From: an uncultured Bacilli bacterium
GTDB taxonomy: Bacteria > Bacillota_I > Bacilli_A > RF39 > UBA660
Assembly (NCBI GenBank): GCA_947628435.1
Contig: CANQZW010000011.1
Coordinates: 1 to 39,134 of the forward strand
Direction of reading: 5' to 3'
Length of the DNA stretch: 39,134 bases
Shown: piece by piece, positions 12,550-35,388 of the stretch
Numbering within the stretch: position 1 is the first letter of the stretch
Layout of the letters: the number at the start of each line of letters is the position of its first letter
Translations under genes and position numbers: made by a program
The notes under the pieces: generated by a model
Databases searched by the model: none
Seen by the model: the letters and a program-made list of their open reading frames with translations, nothing else
What the model was told of the DNA's origin: nothing

Positions 12550-13968
12550 ATGAAAAACAAGGGATTATTAATGGTTTTATTCTTTTCAATTTTATTATTA
12601 GTAATATTAATATACTCTAATTATTTTAATAATAAAATATATTTTAAGGATTTAAAAACATATGATAAAGTAGAGGTATTTACTGATTATAAAAAAGATG
12701 ATAAAGTAGTAGCTTGCTATGGTAATACCCTTAAGTGTAAAAAGATTAAATATAAGGTTCAAGGAAGGGTAAATACTAAGAAATTAGGAGTTTATACACT
12801 AACTTATAGAGCTAAAAAAAATAATAAAGAAACATCTGCAAATAAGAAAGTAGAAGTAATAGATACTAAAGCACCATCTTTAAAAATAAATGGTGTTCTT
12901 AATAGTGTGTGTCCTAATGGAAAAACAATTGGGGCAACATATGAGGCAGTAGATAATTATGATGGCAATATAACGAATAAAATTAAATATAAGATAAAAA
13001 ATAATAAAATAATATATAAAGTAACTGATTCTTCTGGTAATACTACTAAAAAGGAGTTTGATGTTATAATAAAAGATGAAGAAAAACCAACTTTAATTTT
13101 AAATGGGGAAAGTACTATTTATATGTCTGTTGGAAATAAATATGATGAACCGGGTTATGTTGCAATAGATAATTGTGATGGTAACATAACAGGAAATGTA
13201 GTAGTAAAAGGCAATGTAGACACCTCTAAAAAAGGAACATATGAGTTGAATTATAGTGTTAAAGATGAATATGGAAATGAAACAGTTGTAAAAAGAATCG
13301 TAAGGGTATTTCCAAAAAATAATTATGTTCCAGGAGTTTCAAATAATAAAACAATTTATTTAACCTTTGATGATGGACCAGGTGCTCATACTCAAAGATT
13401 ACTTGATATATTAAGACAATACAACGTAAAAGCAACATTTTTTGTAACGGGATATGATATGCGTTATAATGAATTGTTAACTAAAGAACATGATGAGGGT
13501 CATACCGTTGGACTTCATAGTTATACCCATAATTATGGTGTAATATATACAAGCATTGATGCCTATATGCAAGATTTATTAAAAATCCAAGAAAAAGTTA
13601 AGCAATATACAAACGAAGAATCTAAAATAATTAGGTTTCCAGGAGGAAGTTCTAATACGATTAGTAGACGATATAAAACTGGAATAATGAGTGATTTAAC
13701 GAAGAAGGTAGAAGAAATAGGATTTAGATATTTTGACTGGACGATTATGTCTGGTGATGCCGGAAATACAAAAGATTCAAATAAGATAGTTCAAAATGTT
13801 ATAAATGGAATTAAAGAAGATAAAGTAAATGTTATTTTAATGCATGATACTAAATCTTATACTGTTGATTCAGTAGAAAGAATAATACAATATGGGCTTG
13901 CTAATGGATATACGTTTGCACCTATTACAATGGATAGTCCAGTAGTACACCAAAAAGTAAATAATTAG
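12550..13968 (+). CDS. Membrane-anchored polysaccharide deacetylase with Ig-like domains
   Basis: A 472-residue extracytoplasmic enzyme, probably a peptidoglycan or polysaccharide N-deacetylase. An N-terminal membrane anchor (about 5-24) is followed by two or three Ig-like/DUF5011-type domains, each with a DxxAPxL- or DEEKPTL-like start and a DNxDGNIT motif. The NodB domain starts at about residue 265. Its motifs are intact: TFDDGPG (272-278, with metal ligand D275), the His pair in HSYTH (H323, H327), RFPGGSSN, the DW motif and LMHD with catalytic H432. GlcNAc deacetylation of the wall would give lysozyme resistance, which fits the GH25 lysozyme gene next door. ATG start with GAAGGTG upstream. 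The exact substrate is inferred. Confidence 0.9.
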   Translation: MKNKGLLMVLFFSILLLVILIYSNYFNNKIYFKDLKTYDKVEVFTDYKKDDKVVACYGNTLKCKKIKYKVQGRVNTKKLGVYTLTYRAKKNNKETSANKKVEVIDTKAPSLKINGVLNSVCPNGKTIGATYEAVDNYDGNITNKIKYKIKNNKIIYKVTDSSGNTTKKEFDVIIKDEEKPTLILNGESTIYMSVGNKYDEPGYVAIDNCDGNITGNVVVKGNVDTSKKGTYELNYSVKDEYGNETVVKRIVRVFPKNNYVPGVSNNKTIYLTFDDGPGAHTQRLLDILRQYNVKATFFVTGYDMRYNELLTKEHDEGHTVGLHSYTHNYGVIYTSIDAYMQDLLKIQEKVKQYTNEESKIIRFPGGSSNTISRRYKTGIMSDLTKKVEEIGFRYFDWTIMSGDAGNTKDSNKIVQNVINGIKEDKVNVILMHDTKSYTVDSVERIIQYGLANGYTFAPITMDSPVVHQKVNN

Positions 13969-13988: not shown

Positions 13989-14049
13989 GGCTTAGTAATT
14001 ATTTATATTTTAAAGTATTACATCTAATATAATGAATGGGGGTAATACT

Positions 14050-15012
14050 TTGGAAAAGAAAGGTATTGATATTAGTCACCATCAAGGTGATATTGATTTT
14101 GATAAATTAAAAGGAAATATAGATTTTGCAATGGTAAGAACAAGTTACGGATCTTTTTATGAAGATAGAAAATATAAACAAAATATAAATGGATTAGAAA
14201 AAATAAACGTTCCTTATGGTTTATATCATTTCTCATATGCTACTAATGTTTACTCTGCTAAAAAAGAGGCACAAGGATTTTTAAATTTAATAAAAAATTA
14301 TAAACCAACATATCCAGTTGTAATAGATATAGAAAGTTCAAATGAAACATCAAATTTAAGATCTGATACATTAGTTGATATAGCAAATACTTTTTGTAAA
14401 ACAGTTCAAGATGCTGGTTACTACGTTATGATTTATGCAAATTTGGATTATTTTAAAAATAAACTAAATAGTAATGTATTAGATGAATATGATAAGTGGC
14501 TTGCTGAATGGAAAAATAATCCAACGTATAATAAACCATTTGGAATGTGGCAATATACATCAAAAGGTAGCATACCGGGAATAAATGGTAACGTTGATTT
14601 AGACATTGCTTATAAAGATTATCCATCAATAATAAAAGAAAAGAATTTAAATAATTATTCAGCACCAAACAATAATGAAGAAATAAAAAAAGAAGAAAAA
14701 CAAGAAATTAATTATGTAGTAAAAAAAGGAGATACACTAAGTGGTATTGCTAGTAAATATAAAACAACTTATCAGTCTTTAGCAAGTTATAATGGTATAA
14801 CAAATCCAAATAAAATATATGTAGGTCAGATAATAAAAATACCAGGTAGTATAGAAATTAAACCAACAACTTACGTAGTAAAAAAAGGAGATACACTAAG
14901 CGGTATTGCTCAAAAATATGGTGTAAATTGGAAAACTTTATATGAAAATAATAAATCTGTAATAGGTAAAAACCCAGATGTTATAAAGCCAGGACAAATA
15001 TTAACAATATAA
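14050..15012 (+). CDS. GH25 lysozyme with two C-terminal LysM domains
   Basis: Muramidase that cuts the MurNAc-GlcNAc bond of peptidoglycan. The GH25 domain (about 1-200) has the N-terminal catalytic-site GIDISHHQG (D7), the acidic pair in VIDIESS (D93, E95) and the GMWQYTSKG and DLDIAY endings. Two LysM domains (about 223-270, 275-320) both open with [13 protein letters not shown] chose TTG 14050 because TGGGGGT (14037-14043) is correctly spaced from it. The in-frame ATG at 14032 lies inside the likely -10 TATAAT (14028-14033) and has no ribosome binding site. Oddity: there is no signal peptide or membrane anchor. The enzyme may leave the cell by lysis, a holin or a non-classical route, as phage endolysins do. 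Confidence 0.92.
14716..14900 (+). repeat. Exact 26-bp repeat inside the two LysM-coding units
   Basis: The 26 bases starting GTAGTAAAAAAAGGAGA occur identically at 14716-14741 and 14875-14900. They encode the same VVKKGDTLS-like start of each LysM domain. Identity at synonymous positions suggests recent duplication or gene conversion of the module; slippage between copies could change LysM number. Confidence 0.8.
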
Positions 15013-15112: not shown

Positions 15113-15652
15113 GTGAAAAAACAAAATATTGCAATAGTAGCAGTAGTAGCATTTGTATTAGCAGTAGCAGTAGGATATGCATTATTTTCAGAAACATTAC
15201 AAATTAAAGGTACTGCAACTGCAAAAGGTACTTTTGATATTGAATTTACTAAAATAGGAGAAATTATTAGTAAAGGTTATACAAAAACTGAGAGTTCAAG
15301 TGATGTTGCTGTGATAGGAGAAAATGGCAAGTCTTTGACTATAACCGTTAATAAGCTTGATTATCCGGGTGCTTATGTTGAAATTCCTGTTACAATAACT
15401 AATAAGGGAACTATTCCGGCAAAATTGAAACAAATAAGCCAAACTGGACCAAGCGAAGAGAATACGGACATAATTAAGGTTTCATATACTGGACCGGCTT
15501 CAACTGATACGCCAATTAGTTCAGAACAAACACAAGAAATGACTGTTAAAGTTGAATGGTTAGAGAATGATGCTGGTGATGATACTAAAAGTAGGGATGT
15601 AACAGCTACTTTTACAATTACACTAGACTACGAACAAGCAACTAATGAATAA
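15113..15652 (+). CDS. TasA/camelysin-like secreted protein 1 (SipW-type signal)
   Basis: A 179-residue secreted protein. Its N-terminus (hydrophobic core at 6-22, then GYALFSETLQIKGTATAKGT) matches the SipW-dependent signal class. It lines up with TasA of Bacillus around its WAAFND...ASGTLDL region. The mature part is beta-rich, with LDYPGAYVEIPVTITNKGTI corresponding to the PGD..KDFQFENNGSL strand of TasA. TasA and CalY are matrix-fibre proteins or camelysin peptidase relatives; no protease motif is seen here. GTG start with AGGAG 10 bases upstream. Own promoter and terminator, so it can be expressed at a different level from the paralogues that follow. Secretion through the linked SipW-like peptidase is inferred. 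Confidence 0.88.
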   Translation: MKKQNIAIVAVVAFVLAVAVGYALFSETLQIKGTATAKGTFDIEFTKIGEIISKGYTKTESSSDVAVIGENGKSLTITVNKLDYPGAYVEIPVTITNKGTIPAKLKQISQTGPSEENTDIIKVSYTGPASTDTPISSEQTQEMTVKVEWLENDAGDDTKSRDVTATFTITLDYEQATNE

Positions 15653-15662
15653 TGTATAAACT

Positions 15663-15692
15663 AAACAAAGCTTTAATTAGCTTTGTTTTTTT
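15663..15692 (+). terminator. Intrinsic terminator of TasA-like gene 1
   Basis: AAACAAAGCT (15663-15672) and AGCTTTGTTT (15679-15688) form a perfect 10-bp stem with a 6-base loop and a T-run. Confidence 0.85.
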
Positions 15693-15696
15693 ATGG

Positions 15697-15729
15697 TTGA
15701 CTGAAAATTTGAAATAGTGGTATTATAAT
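15697..15729 (+). promoter_or_regulatory. Promoter of the TasA-like 2 / signal peptidase unit
   Basis: TTGACT (15697-15702) is 18 bases from TATTAT (15721-15726), which overlaps TATAAT (15724-15729). It would drive genes 15756, 16279 and 16938, which have no internal terminator. Confidence 0.65.
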
Positions 15730-15755
15730 TATATAGAATAAAGGAAGACTTATTT

Positions 15756-16259
15756 ATGAAAAAGTATAATATTATTATAATTTGCCTTGTAGCTTTTTTA
15801 TTGTCATTGTCAGTAGGGTATGCACTATTTTCAGAAACGTTACAAATTAATGGTACTGCAACTGCAATGGGTACTTTTGACGTTGAGTTTAGTAGTGCTA
15901 CGATTAAAGAGCAAGTTGGTGCAACTAGTTCTACTGCTACTATAAGTTCTGATAAGAATAGTTTAGATATATCTGTTCCAAAGTTAGAGTATCCTGGGGC
16001 ATATGTTGATGTTTTGGTTACGGTTACTAATAAAGGCTCTATTCCGGCTTTTTTAGAAAGTGTGGAAGAAAATGGATTAACAACTGATGAATCTATTAAA
16101 GTGTCATATGCAGGACTTAATGAATTAAAAGATGTTGTTCTTAATCAAAATGATTCAAAAACTTTTGATATTAAAGTGTTATGGGATGAGAAATCGAATG
16201 TTTCATCTAAGGATGTTAATTTCACTATTAAATTAAATTATAGGCAAACTACTAATTAA
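15756..16259 (+). CDS. TasA/camelysin-like secreted protein 2
   Basis: A 167-residue paralogue of the 15113 product. It has the same SipW-class N-terminus (VGYALFSETLQINGTATAMG) and the same LEYPGAYVDVLVTVTNKGSI strand, with a shorter mature domain. DNA around the signal region is nearly identical between the two genes (for example GGTACTGCAACTGCAA in both), which indicates a fairly recent duplication. ATG start with AAAGGAAG upstream. The next gene begins 19 bases after its stop, and no terminator separates them from the signal peptidase gene, so all three probably form one operon. Likely a fibre subunit or accessory; function inferred from TasA. Confidence 0.87.
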   Translation: MKKYNIIIICLVAFLLSLSVGYALFSETLQINGTATAMGTFDVEFSSATIKEQVGATSSTATISSDKNSLDISVPKLEYPGAYVDVLVTVTNKGSIPAFLESVEENGLTTDESIKVSYAGLNELKDVVLNQNDSKTFDIKVLWDEKSNVSSKDVNFTIKLNYRQTTN

Positions 16260-16278
16260 AGTTTAAAGGTGGTGCGTT

Positions 16279-16869
16279 ATGCAAAATACTAATATTAAAA
16301 AAAGGCTATTTGTTATTGGATTAATAATTTTTATATATATTTTATTTATGGGAGTAGGTTATGCTTTTTTTAGTGAGTCATTAACTATTAATGGGGTTGC
16401 AAGTACGGTTGATTATTATGAGGGTGATAAATTACCAGTTGAAGCTGTTATAAGGGATACTGAGCAAAATAGATACTATACGGCTGATAATGAAAAAAAT
16501 CATGTGGTTTTTAATTCTGAGACTTGGCAGGATGATACTTATACTTTAAAGTTGAAAAAAGAAGTTGGTGTAGTAATAGGAGAAAAAACCATAACTTATG
16601 TTGTAACGTTTAAGAATCCTACAACAACAACTTTTACTAATGGTACGATTAACGCAGAAATTACTAAAAATACTAATAATCATATAAAAGAGGTAAGTGG
16701 TTCTTTATCAAAAACAGAAATTAATCCAGGTGATCAAGTAGATGTTTCATTTACTATTAGATCTAATTTTTTAACTACTTATGGAGAGGATTCTGTTAAG
16801 GCAACTATTACATATACTTATCAGAATAAGCCAAGATATTTTTACTTTATAGTTGATTATATAAATTAG
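16279..16869 (+). CDS. Divergent SipW-signal secreted protein
   Basis: A 196-residue protein with the same type of N-terminus as its neighbours: basic start, hydrophobic core, then VGYAFFSESLTINGVAST. The mature part is different. It is a predicted beta-sandwich with Thr- and Asn-rich strands (TFTNGTINAEITKNT), and its SKTEINPGDQVDVSFTIRS strand again matches the PGD..-containing strand of TasA-type folds. It may be a minor subunit, cap or anchor, comparable in position to TapA in Bacillus; that comparison is inference from gene order, not similarity. ATG start with AAAGGTGG upstream, 19 bases after the previous gene. Ends in an aromatic, hydrophobic FYFIVDYIN tail. Confidence 0.8.
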   Translation: MQNTNIKKRLFVIGLIIFIYILFMGVGYAFFSESLTINGVASTVDYYEGDKLPVEAVIRDTEQNRYYTADNEKNHVVFNSETWQDDTYTLKLKKEVGVVIGEKTITYVVTFKNPTTTTFTNGTINAEITKNTNNHIKEVSGSLSKTEINPGDQVDVSFTIRSNFLTTYGEDSVKATITYTYQNKPRYFYFIVDYIN

Positions 16870-16937
16870 TAAGTTATTATATTTGAAAAATTACAGATTA
16901 TAAATTTATTTAACCTGTTAAACTAGAAGGAGGATAA

Positions 16938-18134
16938 ATGAAAAAGAGTATTAAATTATTAATTTTATCATTAATTATTTTATCTTCATTAGCATTTGAA
17001 GTTACTAATGTATCATTAAAACTTGGCTCTTCGTATGCTTATGTTGTAAAACCTATGATTTGGATTTTTATTGGGATTATTAGTTATTTTTTCTTTAAAA
17101 ATGATAAGATAACTAATAACAAGTATAAAAAGGACGTTTTCTTTATTGTTAGTGTTACAACTCTTATATATTTTCTTTTATATTTTATATTAGGTTATAT
17201 TAAGGGTTTTGCAAATAATCCATATGATACATCTTTTAAGGGTATTGTTACTAATTTATGGATGCTTTTACCAATGTTAGTTGCAAAAGAGTATGTAAGA
17301 TATTATATGATTAATAATTGTGAACAGAAAAAAGTTTTATTAAATGCTCTTTTAATATCAATTATCTTTACTCTAGTTGAGTTAAATATATATAAATTTG
17401 ATACTTATTTTTCATCTTCACTAGCTACTTTAGAGTTTATTATGCAAACGTTTATTCCTAGCTTAATAACAAGTTTATATTTAACTTATGTATGTTATTT
17501 CGCAGGCTATTCTGCTTCTATTTTTTATGTTTTATTACCACAATTAATTATGTATGTTTTGCCAATTTTACCTGATATAGATTGGGCAACTATGTCTATT
17601 ATAAATTCTGCAATTCCATTTTTTTCTTATATATATATTAATTATAGTATTAATAAAATGGATAAGACTTTAAATAGAAAGGAAGTAAGAACCGTTGGTA
17701 TTAAAGGTTGGCTTAGTATGATTGCAATTGTTATTTTAATGGTTTGTTTTGGACTTGGAGTATTTCCTTATAAACCTTTAGTAATTGCAAGTAATAGTAT
17801 GGCTCCTAAGATTCATAAGGGTGATATTGTAATTATAAAAGATGTTGATGTTAAAAATGTTAAAAAAGGTGATGTAGTAAGATATAAAATGGAAGGTTAT
17901 TATGTTGTTCATAGAATTGTTATGGTATCTAAAGATGAAGATAATAAGAAAGTATTTATAACTAAGGGTGACAATAATGATAACGTTGATTTATATCCAG
18001 TTAGACAATCACAGTACGCTGGAGTTGTGAAACTTGATATTCCTTATTTAGGATATCCTACGCTAATTCTTAGTAAACTTTTACATACTAACGTAGATGA
18101 TAAAGTAAGTGTAGATAAAGGTAGAATCAAGTAG
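16938..18134 (+). CDS. SipW-like (ER-type) signal peptidase I fused to a multi-pass membrane domain
   Basis: Membrane protease that would remove the signal peptides of the flanking TasA-like proteins. The C-terminal third (about 255-390) is an S26B, SipW/archaeal/ER-type peptidase. It has catalytic Ser in ASNSMAP (S287), His in place of the usual bacterial Lys in YVVHRIV (H325), and the GDNND Asp motif (D345-D348). It is preceded by a membrane helix (about 258-280). SipW proteins are normally about 190 residues. Here an extra N-terminal domain of some 235 residues brings seven or so predicted helices. Its ..LVAKEYVRYYMI stretch recalls integral membrane proteases or scaffold domains, but I cannot name it. 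Strong AAGGAGGA ribosome binding site. Probably co-transcribed with 15756 and 16279. Confidence 0.87.
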   Translation: MKKSIKLLILSLIILSSLAFEVTNVSLKLGSSYAYVVKPMIWIFIGIISYFFFKNDKITNNKYKKDVFFIVSVTTLIYFLLYFILGYIKGFANNPYDTSFKGIVTNLWMLLPMLVAKEYVRYYMINNCEQKKVLLNALLISIIFTLVELNIYKFDTYFSSSLATLEFIMQTFIPSLITSLYLTYVCYFAGYSASIFYVLLPQLIMYVLPILPDIDWATMSIINSAIPFFSYIYINYSINKMDKTLNRKEVRTVGIKGWLSMIAIVILMVCFGLGVFPYKPLVIASNSMAPKIHKGDIVIIKDVDVKNVKKGDVVRYKMEGYYVVHRIVMVSKDEDNKKVFITKGDNNDNVDLYPVRQSQYAGVVKLDIPYLGYPTLILSKLLHTNVDDKVSVDKGRIK

Positions 18135-18183
18135 TATTATTTGTCATAATTTTACTTAAGCTTTTGTATAATATGTTTTTTAG

Positions 18184-18212
18184 TTGAAATTAATCTTACC
18201 TGGTGTTATACT
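18184..18212 (+). promoter_or_regulatory. Promoter of the second TasA-like unit
   Basis: TTGAAA (18184-18189), 17 bases, TATACT (18207-18212) with an extended TGt. This is one of the best promoters in the window, and it gives the 18234-19842 gene pair its own control. Confidence 0.8.
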
Positions 18213-18233
18213 TTATTACGATAGGGGTGTCTC

Positions 18234-18725
18234 ATGAAAAAGCAAAGTTTATTTATTGTTTTGATAGTGTTGTGCATTATAACTATGGCAGTGGGATATT
18301 CTATTTTTAGAACTAATGCTGAGGTAAGTGGTAAAACAGCTTCCGCAAAAGATTTTGATGTTATTTTTACTAAAATAGGGGAAATAAAGCGTGAAGGTTG
18401 TACTAAGGCTAGTGCTTTAATTTCTGAGGATAAAAAAACGGTTACAATAAATTTTGAAACTTTAAGTTATAAAGGAGCTTATGCTGATTTTCCAATCACA
18501 TTAAAAAATGTTGGTGCGATACCTGCTAAACTTCAATCAATAAACCAATATGGATTAGGTTATGATAAGGTAAACGTTAGTTATACTGGTATTGATGTTA
18601 CAGATTTGGTTTTAAATCCTGGTGATGAAAAGGAATTTTATGTTAGAGTATCTTGGAAACAGGATTTAAAAGAAGATAAAAGTAATTATAAGTTTTATAT
18701 AAAATTTAATTATATACAAGGCTAA
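18234..18725 (+). CDS. TasA/camelysin-like secreted protein 3
   Basis: A 163-residue member of the same set. The N-terminus (hydrophobic core about 7-23, VGYSIFRTNAEVSGKTASAK) is the SipW-class signal. The mature domain keeps FDVIFTKIGEI, shared word for word in part with protein 1 (FDIEFTKIGEI), and the YKGAYADFPITLKNVGAIPAKL strand corresponding to PGAYVEIPVTITNKGTIPAKL. It ends in a beta strand, KFYIKFNYIQG. ATG start with AGGGG upstream. The stop lies 13 bases before the DUF5305-like gene, whose ribosome binding site overlaps the stop, so the two are co-transcribed. Protein 3 may be the partner of that membrane protein. Confidence 0.86.
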   Translation: MKKQSLFIVLIVLCIITMAVGYSIFRTNAEVSGKTASAKDFDVIFTKIGEIKREGCTKASALISEDKKTVTINFETLSYKGAYADFPITLKNVGAIPAKLQSINQYGLGYDKVNVSYTGIDVTDLVLNPGDEKEFYVRVSWKQDLKEDKSNYKFYIKFNYIQG

Positions 18726-18738
18726 GGAGGTAATTTAA

Positions 18739-19842
18739 ATGGATAAACTAAAGTTAAATAAAATAGATATAAAAAAAATAGTAATATCTTGTCTTTTAGT
18801 TTTGGCCTTAGTTCTTCAAATTGCTTTTTTAAGTTATTTATTTAAGGCACTTACTCCAGATGAAGAAAAAAATAATGAAAACGTAATAATGAGTTACACA
18901 TCAAAAGGAAATTTTGATTATAAGGTGTATTTAAAACCTAATGAATTTATAAATGAACAATATTTAGAAGAAGATGAAGCTTATATATTAGATTTAATTG
19001 ATCATATTAAAATCGATTATTTATATAATTTTTCTTCTACTGAAAAGACTAATGTAACGGGAACTAATAAGATAATTGCAAGGTTAGTGGTATATTATCA
19101 TGAGTCTAGTGATAGAAACGGAAATCCTGAAATACTAAAGAAGGAAAATGTTATAGATGAAAAAGTTATTAACTTTAATGATAAAACTTATGGCTTAATT
19201 GATTCTTATGATTTATATTTGACTGATTATTTAAAGACTTTAAAAGAATTTCAAAGTCAAGTTAAAATATCAGTTGATGGATACTTAGAGATTTCTTCTG
19301 AAACTAAATTTAATGGTTTAGTAGGTGGTGCAACTTATGATGATAGTTATGAAAATATTATGAAAATTCCACTTAGTTCATCGGTTATAAAAATAGAAAA
19401 TAAAAAACCTAATGAAAAAAGTAATAAAGTATATGAAGGAGATCTTGTAAAAACTAATAAAACTGTAATGAGTTACATTATAGTGGCAAATATATTAATA
19501 TTTATTATAATTTGTATTTTGTTAAAAAGATTATTCTTGTTTACTAATAAATCAGAGTATGATAGACAATTACAGAAAATATTAAAAAATTATGATGATA
19601 TAATAGTTAATACATCAACTATTATTGATATTAATAATTATAAGCTAATAGAAATTGAAGAGTTTAAAGAAATATTAAACTTATCAAGGGAACTTTTATT
19701 ACCAATTATGAATTATGAATTTAAAAAAGTAAAAGAAACTTGGTTTTATGTAATTAAAGATAATGTATTATATAGATATATAGTTTCAGAAGATTCATTA
19801 AAAAAAGAAAAACTAAAGAATAAAACGAATAAGGAAAGTTAG
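18739..19842 (+). CDS. DUF5305-like two-helix membrane protein
   Basis: A 367-residue membrane protein. An N-terminal helix (about 12-34) is followed by an extracellular beta-rich domain of about 200 residues, a second helix (about 245-267, MSYIIVANILIFIIICILL) and a basic cytosolic tail of about 100 residues. The extracellular opening SKGNFDYKVYLKPNEF and the later NGLVGGATYDDSYEN fit the DUF5305 family as I know it. That family occurs near SipW-type peptidases and TasA-like proteins in archaea and Firmicutes. No enzymatic motif is visible. It could anchor, receive or regulate assembly of the small secreted proteins. Start ATG with AAGGAGG in the upstream stop region. A 14-bp terminator ends the cluster. 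Confidence 0.8.
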   Translation: MDKLKLNKIDIKKIVISCLLVLALVLQIAFLSYLFKALTPDEEKNNENVIMSYTSKGNFDYKVYLKPNEFINEQYLEEDEAYILDLIDHIKIDYLYNFSSTEKTNVTGTNKIIARLVVYYHESSDRNGNPEILKKENVIDEKVINFNDKTYGLIDSYDLYLTDYLKTLKEFQSQVKISVDGYLEISSETKFNGLVGGATYDDSYENIMKIPLSSSVIKIENKKPNEKSNKVYEGDLVKTNKTVMSYIIVANILIFIIICILLKRLFLFTNKSEYDRQLQKILKNYDDIIVNTSTIIDINNYKLIEIEEFKEILNLSRELLLPIMNYEFKKVKETWFYVIKDNVLYRYIVSEDSLKKEKLKNKTNKES

Positions 19843-19861
19843 TTTAACTTTCCTTATTTTT
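19828..19861 (+). terminator. Strong intrinsic terminator ending the TasA/SipW cluster
   Basis: AATAAGGAAAGTTA (19828-19841) and TAACTTTCCTTATT (19845-19858) form a perfect 14-bp stem with a 3-base loop, running into T residues. It overlaps the last codons of the DUF5305-like gene. Confidence 0.9.
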
Positions 19862-24103: not shown

Positions 24104-25633
24104 ATGAAAAAGAAAAAGACATTATTTATATCAATTGCAGTAATAATAGTTGTTATATTATTAGTAGTATTTTTATCTCCAAATTTAATAAAAAGATTAA
24201 ATGCTAATATATTTAAAGTATCAGATAATGAAAAACAAGTAATAAGCACTAATACTGTTGATGAAATATGTGGTGCCGCAATTAATAATGAAAATTTTAT
24301 TACGATAAGTGGTAATGTTATTATTAATAAAGGTAATGAGGGTGTAGCAACAGTTAATATAAAAAATGATAATCTTGTATTTACAAAAGAAATCACTGTT
24401 AAATCTAATGATTTTTCTTCATTTAATTATGTCTTACCAAAGGGAGATTACACCTTAACAATAACTAAAGATGGTTATAAAACTTATCAAGAACAAATAT
24501 CAGAAAGTAAAGATCTTACTATCACTTTAGTAAGTAATGATATGGGAAACATCTTATTTTCTAGTAGAACATTTTTAAATACTTACTATGAATATTATCA
24601 AGATGGTACTTTACATTTAAAAACAATTGGTAGTCCGTATGATTATATGGATGAAGATAAAATGGTTGATGAAAACTTTTATCTAAGTGTTTTAGCAGAT
24701 ATCTTAATAAAAAGTATAACAAGTAAAGGTTATTTAACAGAATTTTTTAACGCAGTTAAAGAAAATGAATTAACGGCCACTTTTGCAGCACTTATTTATC
24801 CAGTTTATATTCAAGATTCTGAACAAAGGAATGAGATAGTTGCAATTAGTGATAAAATAAAAAATAACGAGTGTACAAAAGAAAACTATTTAACCAATGA
24901 AAGTTGCAGGCTTAGTCTTGTTCAAATGAATGATGAAGTTAGTGATGAGTTAGAAAAATATTTTTCTTTTGACGTTTATAAAAATGTTGTAGATATTCTT
25001 ATTAATATTCCACAGCAAACTAAGTTAATTATTGAAGATGATGTGGTTACTTTGCCAATACTTGCGCATGTAACAGCTGATGAGGTTGTTATTAATAAAA
25101 ATACTCTTTTACTTTTTGATTATACATTCATGAACTCTAAAGTAAAAACAATGACTATTAATACTCCTTTATTTGGTGATTATGGAAGTGATTTTGCATT
25201 CGGTTCTAAAATAAATAATCTAATAATTGGTGAGGGTGTTACTAGCATTCCAAATAGGGCTTTTTCTGAATCTGAAATCGATAATATTAGTTTGCCTAGT
25301 ACGCTTGAAGAAATTGAATCAAGTTCATTTGAAGATGCTAAATTAAATGGAATTGTATTACAAGAAGGTTTGAAACATATTAGGGATAGTGCTTTTAGCA
25401 ACCTTGGTATTACAGATATCAAGTTGCCGGATAGTTTAATTGAAATTGGTAATTCTGCTTTTTCTGGTAATAAATTAACTAAAATAACTATACCAGCAAG
25501 TGTTAGAAAAATAGGAACGCATGCATTTTACGGTAATGACTTAAAAGAAGTTGAGATAAAGGGTAATAGAACTAGATTTAATAAAGATTGGAGTATAATA
25601 GGCTTTCCTGAAAATTTAAAACCTAATGATTAA
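24104..25633 (+). CDS. Membrane-anchored BspA-type leucine-rich repeat surface protein
   Basis: A 509-residue protein. An N-terminal membrane segment (about 6-26) after a Lys-rich start acts as an uncleaved anchor or signal. A PEGA/carboxypeptidase-regulatory-like beta domain follows (about 85-145, VLPKGDYTLTITKDGYKTY). A mixed domain of unknown type holds two Cys pairs. The C-terminal 150 residues are BspA-type (LRR_5) repeats, e.g. IPNRAFSESEIDNISLPSTL, IRDSAFSNLGITDIKLPDSL and IGTHAFYGNDLKEVEI. Such repeats mediate adhesion to host or bacterial surfaces in gut organisms. ATG with AAAAGGAG upstream. The next gene begins 33 bases later with an almost identical MKKKKxLFI start, so the two form a unit. 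Function inferred from domain class. Confidence 0.87.
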   Translation: MKKKKTLFISIAVIIVVILLVVFLSPNLIKRLNANIFKVSDNEKQVISTNTVDEICGAAINNENFITISGNVIINKGNEGVATVNIKNDNLVFTKEITVKSNDFSSFNYVLPKGDYTLTITKDGYKTYQEQISESKDLTITLVSNDMGNILFSSRTFLNTYYEYYQDGTLHLKTIGSPYDYMDEDKMVDENFYLSVLADILIKSITSKGYLTEFFNAVKENELTATFAALIYPVYIQDSEQRNEIVAISDKIKNNECTKENYLTNESCRLSLVQMNDEVSDELEKYFSFDVYKNVVDILINIPQQTKLIIEDDVVTLPILAHVTADEVVINKNTLLLFDYTFMNSKVKTMTINTPLFGDYGSDFAFGSKINNLIIGEGVTSIPNRAFSESEIDNISLPSTLEEIESSSFEDAKLNGIVLQEGLKHIRDSAFSNLGITDIKLPDSLIEIGNSAFSGNKLTKITIPASVRKIGTHAFYGNDLKEVEIKGNRTRFNKDWSIIGFPENLKPND

Positions 25634-25666: not shown

Positions 25667-28600
25667 ATGAAGAAGAAAAAATTATTTATAGGTATTGGAA
25701 CTATTATTTTAACATTATTAATAGTATGTTTAATAGGTTTTTCTCCTGTTATATATAAAAGATTACAAGGTAATGCAAGTTCTTTTGAAAGTGATAATGG
25801 ACAAGCTGTTAAAACTGGTGTTGTTATTGATACAAAGCTTCTTAATGATGGAGATATTACATCAATTCCACTTAAAATATATAATGGTTCAGATAAAAAA
25901 ATTACTATTAAATCTATATTAGCATCAGATTGTTCTGAAGTTTTTAACCCTAGTTATAATTTTGATATGGAAAAAATAAAAGTTTCTTGTAGTGAATCAG
26001 TACCAATAGAATTAGATAAACAGATTGAAGTTGATCCATATTCTGATTATGTGTATAATTTTGAATTTTCTAGTGGGGGATTTTCTTCTTCGTTTGTAAA
26101 ACTTGGTATAAAGTATGAACTAGACAACAAAACTTATGATTTATCAACCTATACTTTAGTTGCACCTGGAATGGATTTTTTTGATGAATATTCAAAAGCT
26201 TTAATTATCAATAGTCTTAATTCAAAAAGACATGGAAGCATTGAAAATCTTACAAATTTTACTGCTAAAAAAGATCAGAATTTGGATTTAAAAGTTTTAA
26301 TGCCTGATAATGAAGTTGCTATGGATATTTCTGAAAATCTTGAAGATACAGATATGTTTTATATTGTATATGCTAATAGAGGAAGGGGTTATGGCTCAGT
26401 TAATTTAGAAGTTAGCCATCCCCAATCACAAGATTCATTAACTAAAAATATGTTAGGTGAAAGTAACCAATCTAATATTTCAGAGTATTTTAATTTTTAT
26501 GATGTAAATGAAGTTAAAAGTGTTTCTGGTAAAATGCTTGATGAAAGAGAAATTGCTAGTTATGATAGCAATACCGGAAAGTATAAGCTTACTGAAGAAA
26601 AAGATGGGAAAAAAGGAATTTACTTTTATCTTAAAGGCACTCCAAAGAAAATTGTTGAAAAAGAAAAAGTTATTCCAGGTTTTTACTTTAAAGAGGGTTC
26701 TAGTACATCAGAAGAAGATTTTATGATTTATAATTCTGGTGATGTACCAAGCTTTACATTAACTGTATATGATAAATCAAAGTTACGTGATGCGTTGGAT
26801 AGTTGGATTAATCAATTTGATAAAAAATTAAATGAAGATCAAGTTGACGTAGAAAGTTTCACAAAATCACTTTATTCATTTTTAATAGGAGCAAATGTTT
26901 ATGTGGAAAGATATGTTGATCAAGATTTAATAGATAAAGCAGTGAAAGCTATTAATGACAATCCAATTAAATTACTTAATAAAGCTGATTATACTGAACT
27001 TGATAAAATAAAAAATAGCATAGATTCTTCAAATAGAAGTTATTATCCTGAGGGGTCTTTTAATGAAATAGATGAATTATTGAAAAAATATGAAGCTGGT
27101 CTTTCTGAAAACTATCAAGTAAAGATTGATAAGTTAGCTGAAAAGCTTAAAGAAAAATATGACGCTTTAGAAATGTTAGATGCTGATTATAGCAAAGTTG
27201 ATAGTGCTATTAAAACTGCAGGTTTATTAACTAATAAAACTGATGGTGATAAGAACTTATATTCTGATGAAAGTTGGAATAACTTGCAAAATGCTATTAA
27301 AAGTGTTGTAGAAGGTAAAAAGATTAACGAACAGGATGTTGTAGATGGTTATGCGATGAGCATAACAAAAGCAATTGCAGATCTTGAATATGCTCCAGCA
27401 GATTATACTGAACTTAAAAAAATTATTGATGATTATCAAGGCGGTTTAGCATATAAAAATGATTGGTATATAAGTGAAACTAAAAAACCAGTAGATGATT
27501 ATATTGCAACAATAACTTATGATAAAAATATAACAGAACAAAAAGTTGTAGATAAATGGGTTTCTGAGTTAGAACCATTAGTTAAGGCATTAAAATTAAA
27601 AAGAGCATTAGGATATTATGATTCTGATAATTATGAATATTTGAAAACTATGAATTTAATGTCACTAGAAGGTTATAAAAATTATTTTGAAAGTTTAAAT
27701 AAAGATTATTATATTGATGAATCCGTTGAAATAATTGATGAAGTTTTAGAATCTATTGATGATTTATATAAAAATGAATTAACGATTGAAAATCAAGATG
27801 AATTTAATGAGTATTTAATACAATTTCAAGCTGGTATTTCTATGCTTAATAAAAAAATGGGTAATTATGATGAATTATGTAAGTATTACATACAAGCTTT
27901 TAATTTAAATAGTAATTATTATAAGGATTTAACTGAGTTATTGGGTGTATTATCAGATATAGATTTTGATCTAAAAATAGATGAACAAGATAAAATAGAT
28001 AGTTATACAAAAAGATTAAAGGATGCTCTTAATAATTTGGAATTAAAAGATGCAGATTATACTGAGTTTAATAAAGCATATGAAAAGGCTAAAGGACTTA
28101 ATCCAAAACATTATGTTGATTTTGAGGCTGTTGAAGATGCAATTAAAGAGGCTAATCGGGCTAAAAATCTTAAGATAGATCAGCAAAATGTAGTAGATGA
28201 GGCAACTAATAAATTAAATAAAGCAATTAAAGGTTTAGTATTAAAAGATGCAAATTATTCTCAAATAGAATCTTTAAAAGCTGTTATTGAGTCACTAGAT
28301 AGTAGTAAGTATACTAATTTTGATGTTGTTAAGGATGCTTTAGATGATATTGTGTATGGTAAAAAGGCAAATGAGCAAGATGCGGTAGATGAGATGTATA
28401 ACAAACTTAAAAAAGCGTATGATTCATTAGATAAAGTAAAGGCTAATTATAAGGAAGTTGAAAAAGCTGTTTCTAATGCTAAGAAATATGAAAGTTTAAA
28501 GGATAATTATGAAAATTATTCACAGTTATTAGATGCTCTTGCTAGTGTTAATTATGATTTGAAATGGGATCAGCAAGATATTGTTGATAGTTATGTAAAT

Positions 28601-29458
28601 AAAATTAATGATGCTATAAAGAATCTAAAGAAAAAAGGAGCTAATTATACTGAATTGGAACAGTTAGTTTCTAAAGTACCTAATGATTATTCTAATTTGG
28701 ATAAGTCACTTAGATCTCAAATTGAAGCTTTATTAAATGAAGCTAGAAATTTACCTAGAAATCTTACTTATGAAGAACAATATAGAATTGATGATTTGGT
28801 TTCTAGATTAAGAAGTTTAATTGATAAATTACCAAAAATTGATAAATATGATAATTCTAAAGAGATAATATTAAGTTATTTGAAAGTAAATGGTAATGAT
28901 GTAAATATTAAAACTTTACCATTTAGGTATGAAGTTGGTTATGATGTTACAAGTGCTAATATTGAGGTTGGATTAGCATCAAAAACAAGTACAAGTAAAG
29001 TATATGGTGGAAAAGTACTTTTACCTGGTGAAAATAACATAACTATAATTGTTACAACAAGTAATAAAAAAACATATACTTATAATCTTATTATTACTAG
29101 AAGTACTTCTAGCAATTATTTAAAGAGTTTAAAAATAAAGCAAAGTAAAATAGAATTTAATAAGACTAAGCAGGAGTATGTTGTTAAAATAAATAAAGAT
29201 GTTAATAAGCTTGATTTAACTTTAATACCAGAGGATGAAAGTGCTAAGATAACCGTAAAGGGTAACAAGAAGTTAGTAAATGGTGGTAAGGTTTATATCG
29301 AAGTTAAATCTCAAGATGGTAATAAAAGAGTATATACTTTAAATATTCAAAAGCAGGGTGGTATTAATATATGGTTAATTATATTCTGCATAATAGCATT
29401 TATTATTACTCTTGCTTTGGTTAAACGTTTAAAGGATCATAATGATTATAAAGAATAA
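25667..29458 (+). CDS. Large surface protein with FIVAR-like repeats and cadherin-like domain
   Basis: A 1263-residue protein anchored at both ends: an N-terminal helix (about 6-28) and a C-terminal helix (about 1233-1254), with a short basic tail. The first 430 residues are beta-rich and unrecognised. From about 440 to 1080 it is built of about nine helical FIVAR-like repeats of 65-85 residues. Each starts (A/N)(D/N)YTELxxxI and contains the pattern xxExNEQDxVDxxxxxLxxAIxxL. A cadherin-like beta-sandwich domain, LKSLKIKQSKIEFNKTKQEY, follows (about 1155-1225), after a similar copy at about 1065-1145. FIVAR repeats act as stalks in cell-wall proteins. No LPXTG motif is present. ATG with GGAGG. 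A terminator shared with feoB follows. Confidence 0.85.
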   Translation: MKKKKLFIGIGTIILTLLIVCLIGFSPVIYKRLQGNASSFESDNGQAVKTGVVIDTKLLNDGDITSIPLKIYNGSDKKITIKSILASDCSEVFNPSYNFDMEKIKVSCSESVPIELDKQIEVDPYSDYVYNFEFSSGGFSSSFVKLGIKYELDNKTYDLSTYTLVAPGMDFFDEYSKALIINSLNSKRHGSIENLTNFTAKKDQNLDLKVLMPDNEVAMDISENLEDTDMFYIVYANRGRGYGSVNLEVSHPQSQDSLTKNMLGESNQSNISEYFNFYDVNEVKSVSGKMLDEREIASYDSNTGKYKLTEEKDGKKGIYFYLKGTPKKIVEKEKVIPGFYFKEGSSTSEEDFMIYNSGDVPSFTLTVYDKSKLRDALDSWINQFDKKLNEDQVDVESFTKSLYSFLIGANVYVERYVDQDLIDKAVKAINDNPIKLLNKADYTELDKIKNSIDSSNRSYYPEGSFNEIDELLKKYEAGLSENYQVKIDKLAEKLKEKYDALEMLDADYSKVDSAIKTAGLLTNKTDGDKNLYSDESWNNLQNAIKSVVEGKKINEQDVVDGYAMSITKAIADLEYAPADYTELKKIIDDYQGGLAYKNDWYISETKKPVDDYIATITYDKNITEQKVVDKWVSELEPLVKALKLKRALGYYDSDNYEYLKTMNLMSLEGYKNYFESLNKDYYIDESVEIIDEVLESIDDLYKNELTIENQDEFNEYLIQFQAGISMLNKKMGNYDELCKYYIQAFNLNSNYYKDLTELLGVLSDIDFDLKIDEQDKIDSYTKRLKDALNNLELKDADYTEFNKAYEKAKGLNPKHYVDFEAVEDAIKEANRAKNLKIDQQNVVDEATNKLNKAIKGLVLKDANYSQIESLKAVIESLDSSKYTNFDVVKDALDDIVYGKKANEQDAVDEMYNKLKKAYDSLDKVKANYKEVEKAVSNAKKYESLKDNYENYSQLLDALASVNYDLKWDQQDIVDSYVNKINDAIKNLKKKGANYTELEQLVSKVPNDYSNLDKSLRSQIEALLNEARNLPRNLTYEEQYRIDDLVSRLRSLIDKLPKIDKYDNSKEIILSYLKVNGNDVNIKTLPFRYEVGYDVTSANIEVGLASKTSTSKVYGGKVLLPGENNITIIVTTSNKKTYTYNLIITRSTSSNYLKSLKIKQSKIEFNKTKQEYVVKINKDVNKLDLTLIPEDESAKITVKGNKKLVNGGKVYIEVKSQDGNKRVYTLNIQKQGGINIWLIIFCIIAFIITLALVKRLKDHNDYKE

Positions 29459-34653: not shown

Positions 34654-35388
34654 ATGTTTTTTGACTTAGCTAAAGAAATTAATTTTAAAAATGCTTATTT
34701 TGATATGTTGAAATATAGATTAGCATATGCAAGTTTAGAGTTAGAAGGAATATCAGATGATTTAGCTGATATAAAACAATCGATAAAAATATATAATCAA
34801 CTTAATGCTATCAATTATATTTTTGATAGTTATAATGAAAAAGAATTGTCTCATTTTGAGTTTACAAATCTTTTATGTGAAGTTGTTAAAAGAGTAACTG
34901 GTGAAGAAATAAGTGATTTTAGAAAAACAACTGCGTATGTTAGTGGTTCTGATGTACCAAGGTCAAAACCGCAAATGATTAGAAATGATTTATGGTATTT
35001 AATTGATGATTATAATTATAGAATACAGAATTATAAGGATCCAGAAGAAATATATGAAATAGAAGCTGACTTTCATATTAGATTTTTACATATTCATCCT
35101 TTTGAAGATGGTAATGGTAGAGTAGCTAGAATATTACTTTTATATAACTTGTGTCGGAAATCAATTGCACCATGTATAATAACAAAAGATATGAAAAGAA
35201 AATATTGTGATTTGATTGAAAAAGCTGATTCTAAAAATTTGGCCTTATTATTTAAGGAATTATCTGAAAAAGAACTTGAAACAATGGTTTCACTTTATAA
35301 GAAATTAGATGAAAAAGGATTAATTGAAAGTAATAAAATGAGTTCTGATGAATTTGATGAGTATAAAAAAAGTATTGGGGGTAAATAG
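34654..35388 (+). CDS. Fic-domain protein (AMPylase-like, class II self-inhibited)
   Basis: A 244-residue Fic/DOC-fold protein that by family transfers AMP (or another nucleotide) to a target hydroxyl. The active-site loop HPFEDGNGR (148-156) is complete, with catalytic H148 and the anion-hole GNGR. An inhibitory helix motif S-x-x-x-E-G (S27-E31-G32, in YASLELEGISDD) near the N-terminus places it in class II, where the Glu blocks ATP until relieved. Target and physiological role are unknown. ATG start with AAAGGTGAT upstream. The stop TAG overlaps the GTG start of queH by one base, so the two are translationally coupled. No antitoxin gene is adjacent. Confidence 0.88.
   Translation: MFFDLAKEINFKNAYFDMLKYRLAYASLELEGISDDLADIKQSIKIYNQLNAINYIFDSYNEKELSHFEFTNLLCEVVKRVTGEEISDFRKTTAYVSGSDVPRSKPQMIRNDLWYLIDDYNYRIQNYKDPEEIYEIEADFHIRFLHIHPFEDGNGRVARILLLYNLCRKSIAPCIITKDMKRKYCDLIEKADSKNLALLFKELSEKELETMVSLYKKLDEKGLIESNKMSSDEFDEYKKSIGGK

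Follow-up and report, generated by a model that had tools for sequence, protein, structure and literature searches.

A conserved locus encoding TasA/AbpX-like small proteins, an ER-type signal peptidase and a DUF5305 protein in an uncultured Bacilli bacterium, and its proposed role in donor-strand fibre assembly

In the TasA fibre of Bacillus subtilis each subunit is completed by the N-terminal strand of a neighbouring one (PMC9674648), and the fibre is started by TapA, which almost repeats the first five residues of TasA (AFHDI versus AFNDI) (PMC10151520). The P2′ phenylalanine of TasA makes its cleavage site a poor one for LepB, and processing is left to a dedicated peptidase of archaeal-like type (PMC10269814). 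Donor-strand exchange has also been described for the bundling fibre of AbpX (ABPx) from Pyrodictium abyssi (PMC11952670). The locus described here, which an earlier note had read as a TasA/SipW-like system for export and assembly of a surface fibre, resembles the B. subtilis TasA-TapA-SipW system (PMC9674648, PMC10151520) in its dedicated ER-type signal peptidase, its SipW-type signals with phenylalanine at the presumed P2′ position, its subunit modelled as a beta-sandwich and the presence of a second protein that has just the N-terminal strand in common with that subunit. It differs from that system in having three subunit paralogues, a multi-pass domain in the peptidase, a DUF5305 partner and no match to the camelysin model, and in the adhesin fusions found in relatives. 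AbpX and the archaeal bundling pili, the closest solved sequence relatives of the small proteins A, B and D with an N-terminal strand that aligns to theirs, differ in being archaeal. As judged from its description, the sipW-bsaABCRSD operon of Clostridium perfringens (PMC7395162) is comparable in specifying SipW-dependent, SDS-resistant filaments and accessory secreted proteins, while it has its own two-component system and its gene list names no DUF5305-like membrane protein. The Bacillus cereus TasA-CalY-CapP system (PMC13082335) is alike in its two copolymerising paralogues and SipW-processed assembly factor, though that factor, CapP, consists of DUF4047 and repeats, and DUF5305 is not named.

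The window, that is the whole stretch of 39,134 nucleotides that was analysed, represents contig C11 of a 0.98 Mb genome which is 95% complete. Open reading frame calls on the window placed six genes, all open and on the + strand, within 15113-19842, and the features of this locus are as follows:

15113..15652, + strand: protein A, 179 aa, GTG start; SipW-type signal (VGYA↓LFSETL, presumed cut at the arrow) and TasA/AbpX-like beta-sandwich
15182..15226, + strand: putative N-terminal donor strand of A, residues 24-38, LFSETLQIKGTATAK
15663..15688, + strand: terminator-like hairpin and T run, 3′ of A
15756..16259, + strand: protein B, 167 aa, paralogue of A
16279..16869, + strand: protein C, 196 aa; A-type signal and N-terminal strand on a different body; TapA-like candidate
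16938..18134, + strand: signal peptidase of 398 aa, with an ER-type S26 domain fused behind a multi-pass N-terminal domain (~1-245)
17706..18077, + strand: ER-type S26 catalytic domain, residues 257-380; Ser287, His325, Asp345
18234..18725, + strand: protein D, 163 aa; A/B family, own clade; adjoins DUF5305
18739..19842, + strand: DUF5305 protein, 367 aa; last gene of the locus
19144..19779, + strand: PF17231 (DUF5305) match inside the last gene
19827..19859, + strand: terminator-like hairpin at the end of the locus

The locus is flanked by a GH25-LysM gene (14032-15012, + strand) on one side and by tRNA-Gln/tRNA-Glu on the other. Elsewhere in the window, an Ig-like and polysaccharide deacetylase protein is encoded at 12550-13968 (+) and a Fic/DOC-family protein at 34654-35388 (+). 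The 1263-aa product of 25667-29458 (+), which is probably a large protein of the cell surface, has a single cadherin-like beta-sandwich domain close to its C-terminal end. Five terminator-like hairpins were found as compared to 0.9 expected, and these are located 5′ of A, 3′ of A and 3′ of the DUF5305 gene. The earlier proposal of at least three transcription units agrees with these positions, but it gains nothing from the promoter scan of the locus, which was uninformative as promoter-like sites occurred at background level.

Proteins A, B and D represent one family, with 39-48% identity to A, so that the common domain suspected in three of the small proteins is confirmed and C falls outside it. 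All four small proteins carry the SipW-class signal that had been assigned to them (VGYALF in A and B, VGYAFF in C, VGYSIF in D), although the SipW-type signal model TIGR04088 gave no match in A-D at E<=1 and only a weak match in 3 of 34 relatives (best 0.016). Invariant columns in 34 family members include Tyr22, Phe25, Phe45 and Gly99; the signal peptidase probably cuts between VGYA and [L/F]F, in which case Phe25 is the aromatic P2′ residue, as in TasA. The putative strands that follow are ALFSETLQIKGTATAK in A, ALFSETLQINGTATAM in B, AFFSESLTINGVASTV in C and SIFRTNAEVSGKTASA in D, with 14 of 16 residues identical to A in B, 8-9 of 16 in C and 2 of 16 in D. The N-terminal strand (2.58 bits) is not more conserved than the body (2.68 bits), which counts against the fibre reading given below. 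In the tree D forms its own clade (support 99), found beside DUF5305.

The kinship of A, B and D to known fibre proteins was assessed by profile searches and structure comparison. The A/B/D profile matched two PDB entries, 9SJ2 and 9RHP, with E=1.1e-4 and 2.8e-4, while all other PDB matches stayed at 0.18 or worse; from their names we take both entries to be the AbpX protein; the N-terminus of AbpX (TLSLSATI-STGSLDV) aligns with the proposed strand of A/B/D. These proteins therefore have profile similarity to a solved donor-strand fibre protein. The camelysin/TasA model PF12389, by comparison, had no match in A-D or in their own genome and was absent among the families listed for 34 relatives. 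When proteins of relatives that were found with PF12389 were aligned as a camelysin-like comparison set, the A/B/D body without its signal matched this set with P=1.6e-4 (best of 20 column shuffles 0.019), in an alignment that runs through the motif PGAYVxIPVTITNKGTIP. The AF2 model of A (mean pLDDT 84) comprises the signal helix, residues 27-42 without regular structure, and a sandwich at 43-175. The unplaced N-terminal segment is the one feature of this monomer model that fits polymerisation by donor-strand exchange. The TasA fibre 8AUR superimposes on this model with a Z of 6.3 and an rmsd of 3.0 over 115 residues; the fold by itself proves no kinship with TasA, however, because unrelated Ig-like folds reach the same Z.

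For protein C, a TapA-like fibre starter is a better reading than a TasA-domain protein. Comparison of the C and A family profiles aligned just 36 columns, corresponding to the signal and the first mature strand; with the signals removed, the alignment was confined to the first 15 columns (P 9.8e-4), and with the strand also removed, profile comparison gave no alignment of the C body with the A-family body. C was accordingly rejected as a fourth TasA-domain protein. The reading as a starter follows from this pattern, as only the N-terminal strand is common to C and A/B/D, and C, like TapA, thus combines the N-terminal strand of the main subunit, here a putative donor strand, with another body. 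The C profile had no match among solved structures at E<=10.

The presence of an ER-type Ser/His peptidase in the cluster was borne out, the peptidase scoring 97 bits against TIGR02228 (ER-type signal peptidase I; cut-off 51.85) and E=4e-23 against SEC11C, with Ser287, His325 and Asp345 invariant in 34 homologues. With NF046067, the Bacillus SipW equivalog model, it reached 63.6 bits and not the cut-off of 190. As regards profile checks with TasA/CalY and SipW models, then, the AbpX match speaks for the earlier proposal, but PF12389 gave nothing and NF046067 remained below its cut-off. Residues ~1-245 of the peptidase constitute a multi-pass hydrophobic domain in which Gly86, Glu118, Arg121 and Pro212 are invariant and for which no match to any known family was found in Pfam. 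Just one other type I peptidase match is present in the genome, a weak one at C1, and therefore this enzyme probably serves all SipW-type substrates of the genome. The named relatives of the peptidase gene are from metagenome assemblies, three of them from an 'uncultured Bacilli bacterium', two of these with 'Lapin' isolate names (read here as rabbit).

That the cluster closes with a DUF5305-like two-helix membrane protein also proved correct: the last gene scores 57.2 bits against PF17231, above the cut-off of 29, and its product has two hydrophobic helices. The model shows a helix at 11-38, a beta-sandwich ectodomain at ~49-232, a second helix at 241-268 and an alpha/beta domain at 273-350, which is presumably cytoplasmic. 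It resembles the transglutaminase C-domain and arrestin-like sandwiches with Z ~7-8, a level that is commonly met. Homology of the ectodomain to A/B/D was considered and rejected, as profile comparison gave no match although both are beta-sandwiches. In 59 related genomes, 36 of the 43 DUF5305 genes have an S26 peptidase gene no more than 2.5 kb away, and several of the seven unpaired ones sit at contig ends. An adjoining DUF5305 gene was found for 35 of 41 long S26 genes as compared to 1 of 33 short ones, the latter being cut by a contig end. The pair also occurs on two distant contigs, L161 and L162, where the S26 domain is N-terminal and the multi-pass domain was not detected. L161 (G118:C49) is assigned to a Bacilli bin, yet its proteins look haloarchaeal and it may be contamination. 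No paper in the literature collection that was searched names DUF5305.

The locus is a real, conserved system. The order A-B-C-peptidase-D-DUF5305 is kept, completely or mostly, in genomes of the same genus, and the neighbourhood is thus conserved together with the peptidase, as had been anticipated. Several genomes contain a second, divergent module consisting of a small signal protein, a peptidase, a DUF5305 protein and a large signal protein, and in most family loci genes for SipW-type signal proteins flank the peptidase-DUF5305 pair.

Contrary to the earlier description, the system is not self-contained, because its own genome encodes further substrates at other places and relatives encode many more. 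Two additional A/B-like genes with full signals, and with strands nearly identical to that of A, are present at C5:30889 and C5:33117, and matches to the A/B/D profile number 2-32 per genome in the genus. Many of these fall in ORFs of 250-1000 aa, in which the head (signal and domain) is fused to LRR_5, DUF285, GLUG or other domains, and dozens of proteins in relatives join it to BspA/DUF285 leucine-rich repeats or other adhesin-type domains. In a non-exhaustive sample of genus ORFs with a complete N-terminus, the head is carried by 12 of 13 DUF285 proteins (6 of these 12 from one genome) and by 8 of 21 LRR_5 proteins; in the tree the DUF285 heads form a single clade, while the LRR_5 label requires several changes. 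A headed large protein lies directly 3′ of DUF5305 in 11 of 17 loci checked, mostly with DUF285, Listeria-Bacteroides repeat, glycine-rich or fn3 domains. A literature search found no paper joining BspA, LRR and SipW. Local expansion of the family is seen in L153 (527-5124, - strand), where six complete small SipW-signal genes lie in tandem with a seventh cut by the end of the locus. LRR_5 or DUF285 adhesins with type IV pilin-like N-termini (GFTLIELLA), paralleling the TasA-like heads, are found in L187, L188, L201, L211 and L215, and such N-termini fit the idea that these adhesins dock to fibres. In the window itself, 24104-25633 (+) encodes a 509-aa protein with C-terminal BspA-type LRR_5 repeats, similar to proteins in several genomes of the same genus; an A/B-like head on this protein was rejected, as its N-terminus is a plain membrane helix that lacks a SipW-type signal (judged with its orthologue in L071).

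Taking gene content, conservation, profile matches, predicted folds and fusions together, we infer a cleavage site, strand exchange and a division of roles that make up a TasA/AbpX-like donor-strand fibre system, an explanation we consider probable. Proteins A, B, C and D would be exported by Sec, after which cleavage by the dedicated ER-type peptidase would release the N-terminal strand (LFSETLQIxGTATA). This strand would fill the groove of the next subunit, so that chains of A and B grow as the fibre. C, having the same strand on a different body, is probably the donor of the first strand, as TapA is. As the strand of D differs and D always lies beside DUF5305, these two proteins probably hold the fibre at the membrane, and the peptidase may be coupled to DUF5305 through its N-terminal membrane domain; the roles given to D, DUF5305 and this domain were assigned from gene order alone. 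The unlinked A/B-like gene products, and in relatives the adhesins with leucine-rich repeats fused to the same module, would join the same fibre. The surface-fibre proposal with DUF5305 thus stands as regards the AbpX profile match and the conserved neighbourhood, but not as regards the curated camelysin/TasA and SipW models or self-containment.

The foremost alternative, which we regard as unlikely, is that A, B and D form a beta-sandwich coat at the membrane or wall, or act as single adhesins, with no fibre being made and with signal and strand conserved solely for the peptidase. The conserved N-terminal stretch indeed overlaps the cleavage region that the peptidase has to recognise, the sandwich fold is common, its Z of 6.3 lying among many unrelated matches, and the fusions with DUF285 and LRR could act as adhesins on their own. 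However, AbpX, the nearest relative of solved structure, is a fibre protein with donor-strand exchange, and the identity of the A and B strands far exceeds the 48% seen overall and reaches ~15 residues beyond the presumed cut. Furthermore, no LPXTG motif was present in 15 sampled members, and the C-termini of the sampled adhesin fusions, judged by eye, have no membrane helix. An exported matrix or coat that is mainly linked to the cell wall, and that acts together with the GH25 lysozyme-like and peptidoglycan deacetylase genes found upstream, is very improbable: genes of GH25-LysM and deacetylase size, one or both, do lie immediately upstream in most same-genus loci with upstream sequence covered (by size and order only), but the second, divergent peptidase-DUF5305 modules have no such gene pair upstream. 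Least probable of all is that DUF5305 and the peptidase serve as a pair in general quality control or export and have nothing to do with fibres, A-D being incidental neighbours, since, even though the pair occurs without A1-family matches alongside (e.g. L161, L162), SipW-type signal proteins flank it in most family loci and D is a dedicated clade adjoining DUF5305.

Beyond the donor-strand fibre system itself, we tentatively raise the possibility, to which we give somewhat less than even chances, of a fibre of interchangeable parts in these ~1 Mb gut Bacilli, in which the TasA-like head would be a universal plug, DUF5305 and the multi-pass peptidase the platform, and the BspA/DUF285 adhesins a changing repertoire. 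The start and surface anchoring of TasA-type fibres are poorly understood, and the locus provides two new candidate parts with strong genetic linkage, namely DUF5305 and the membrane domain of the peptidase. On the reading with interchangeable parts, the peptidase-DUF5305 pair would represent a base for TasA-type fibres that has not been described before and is possibly common to archaea. The TasA-like head on leucine-rich-repeat adhesins suggests how gut bacteria with reduced genomes could display many adhesins in a sortase-free manner.
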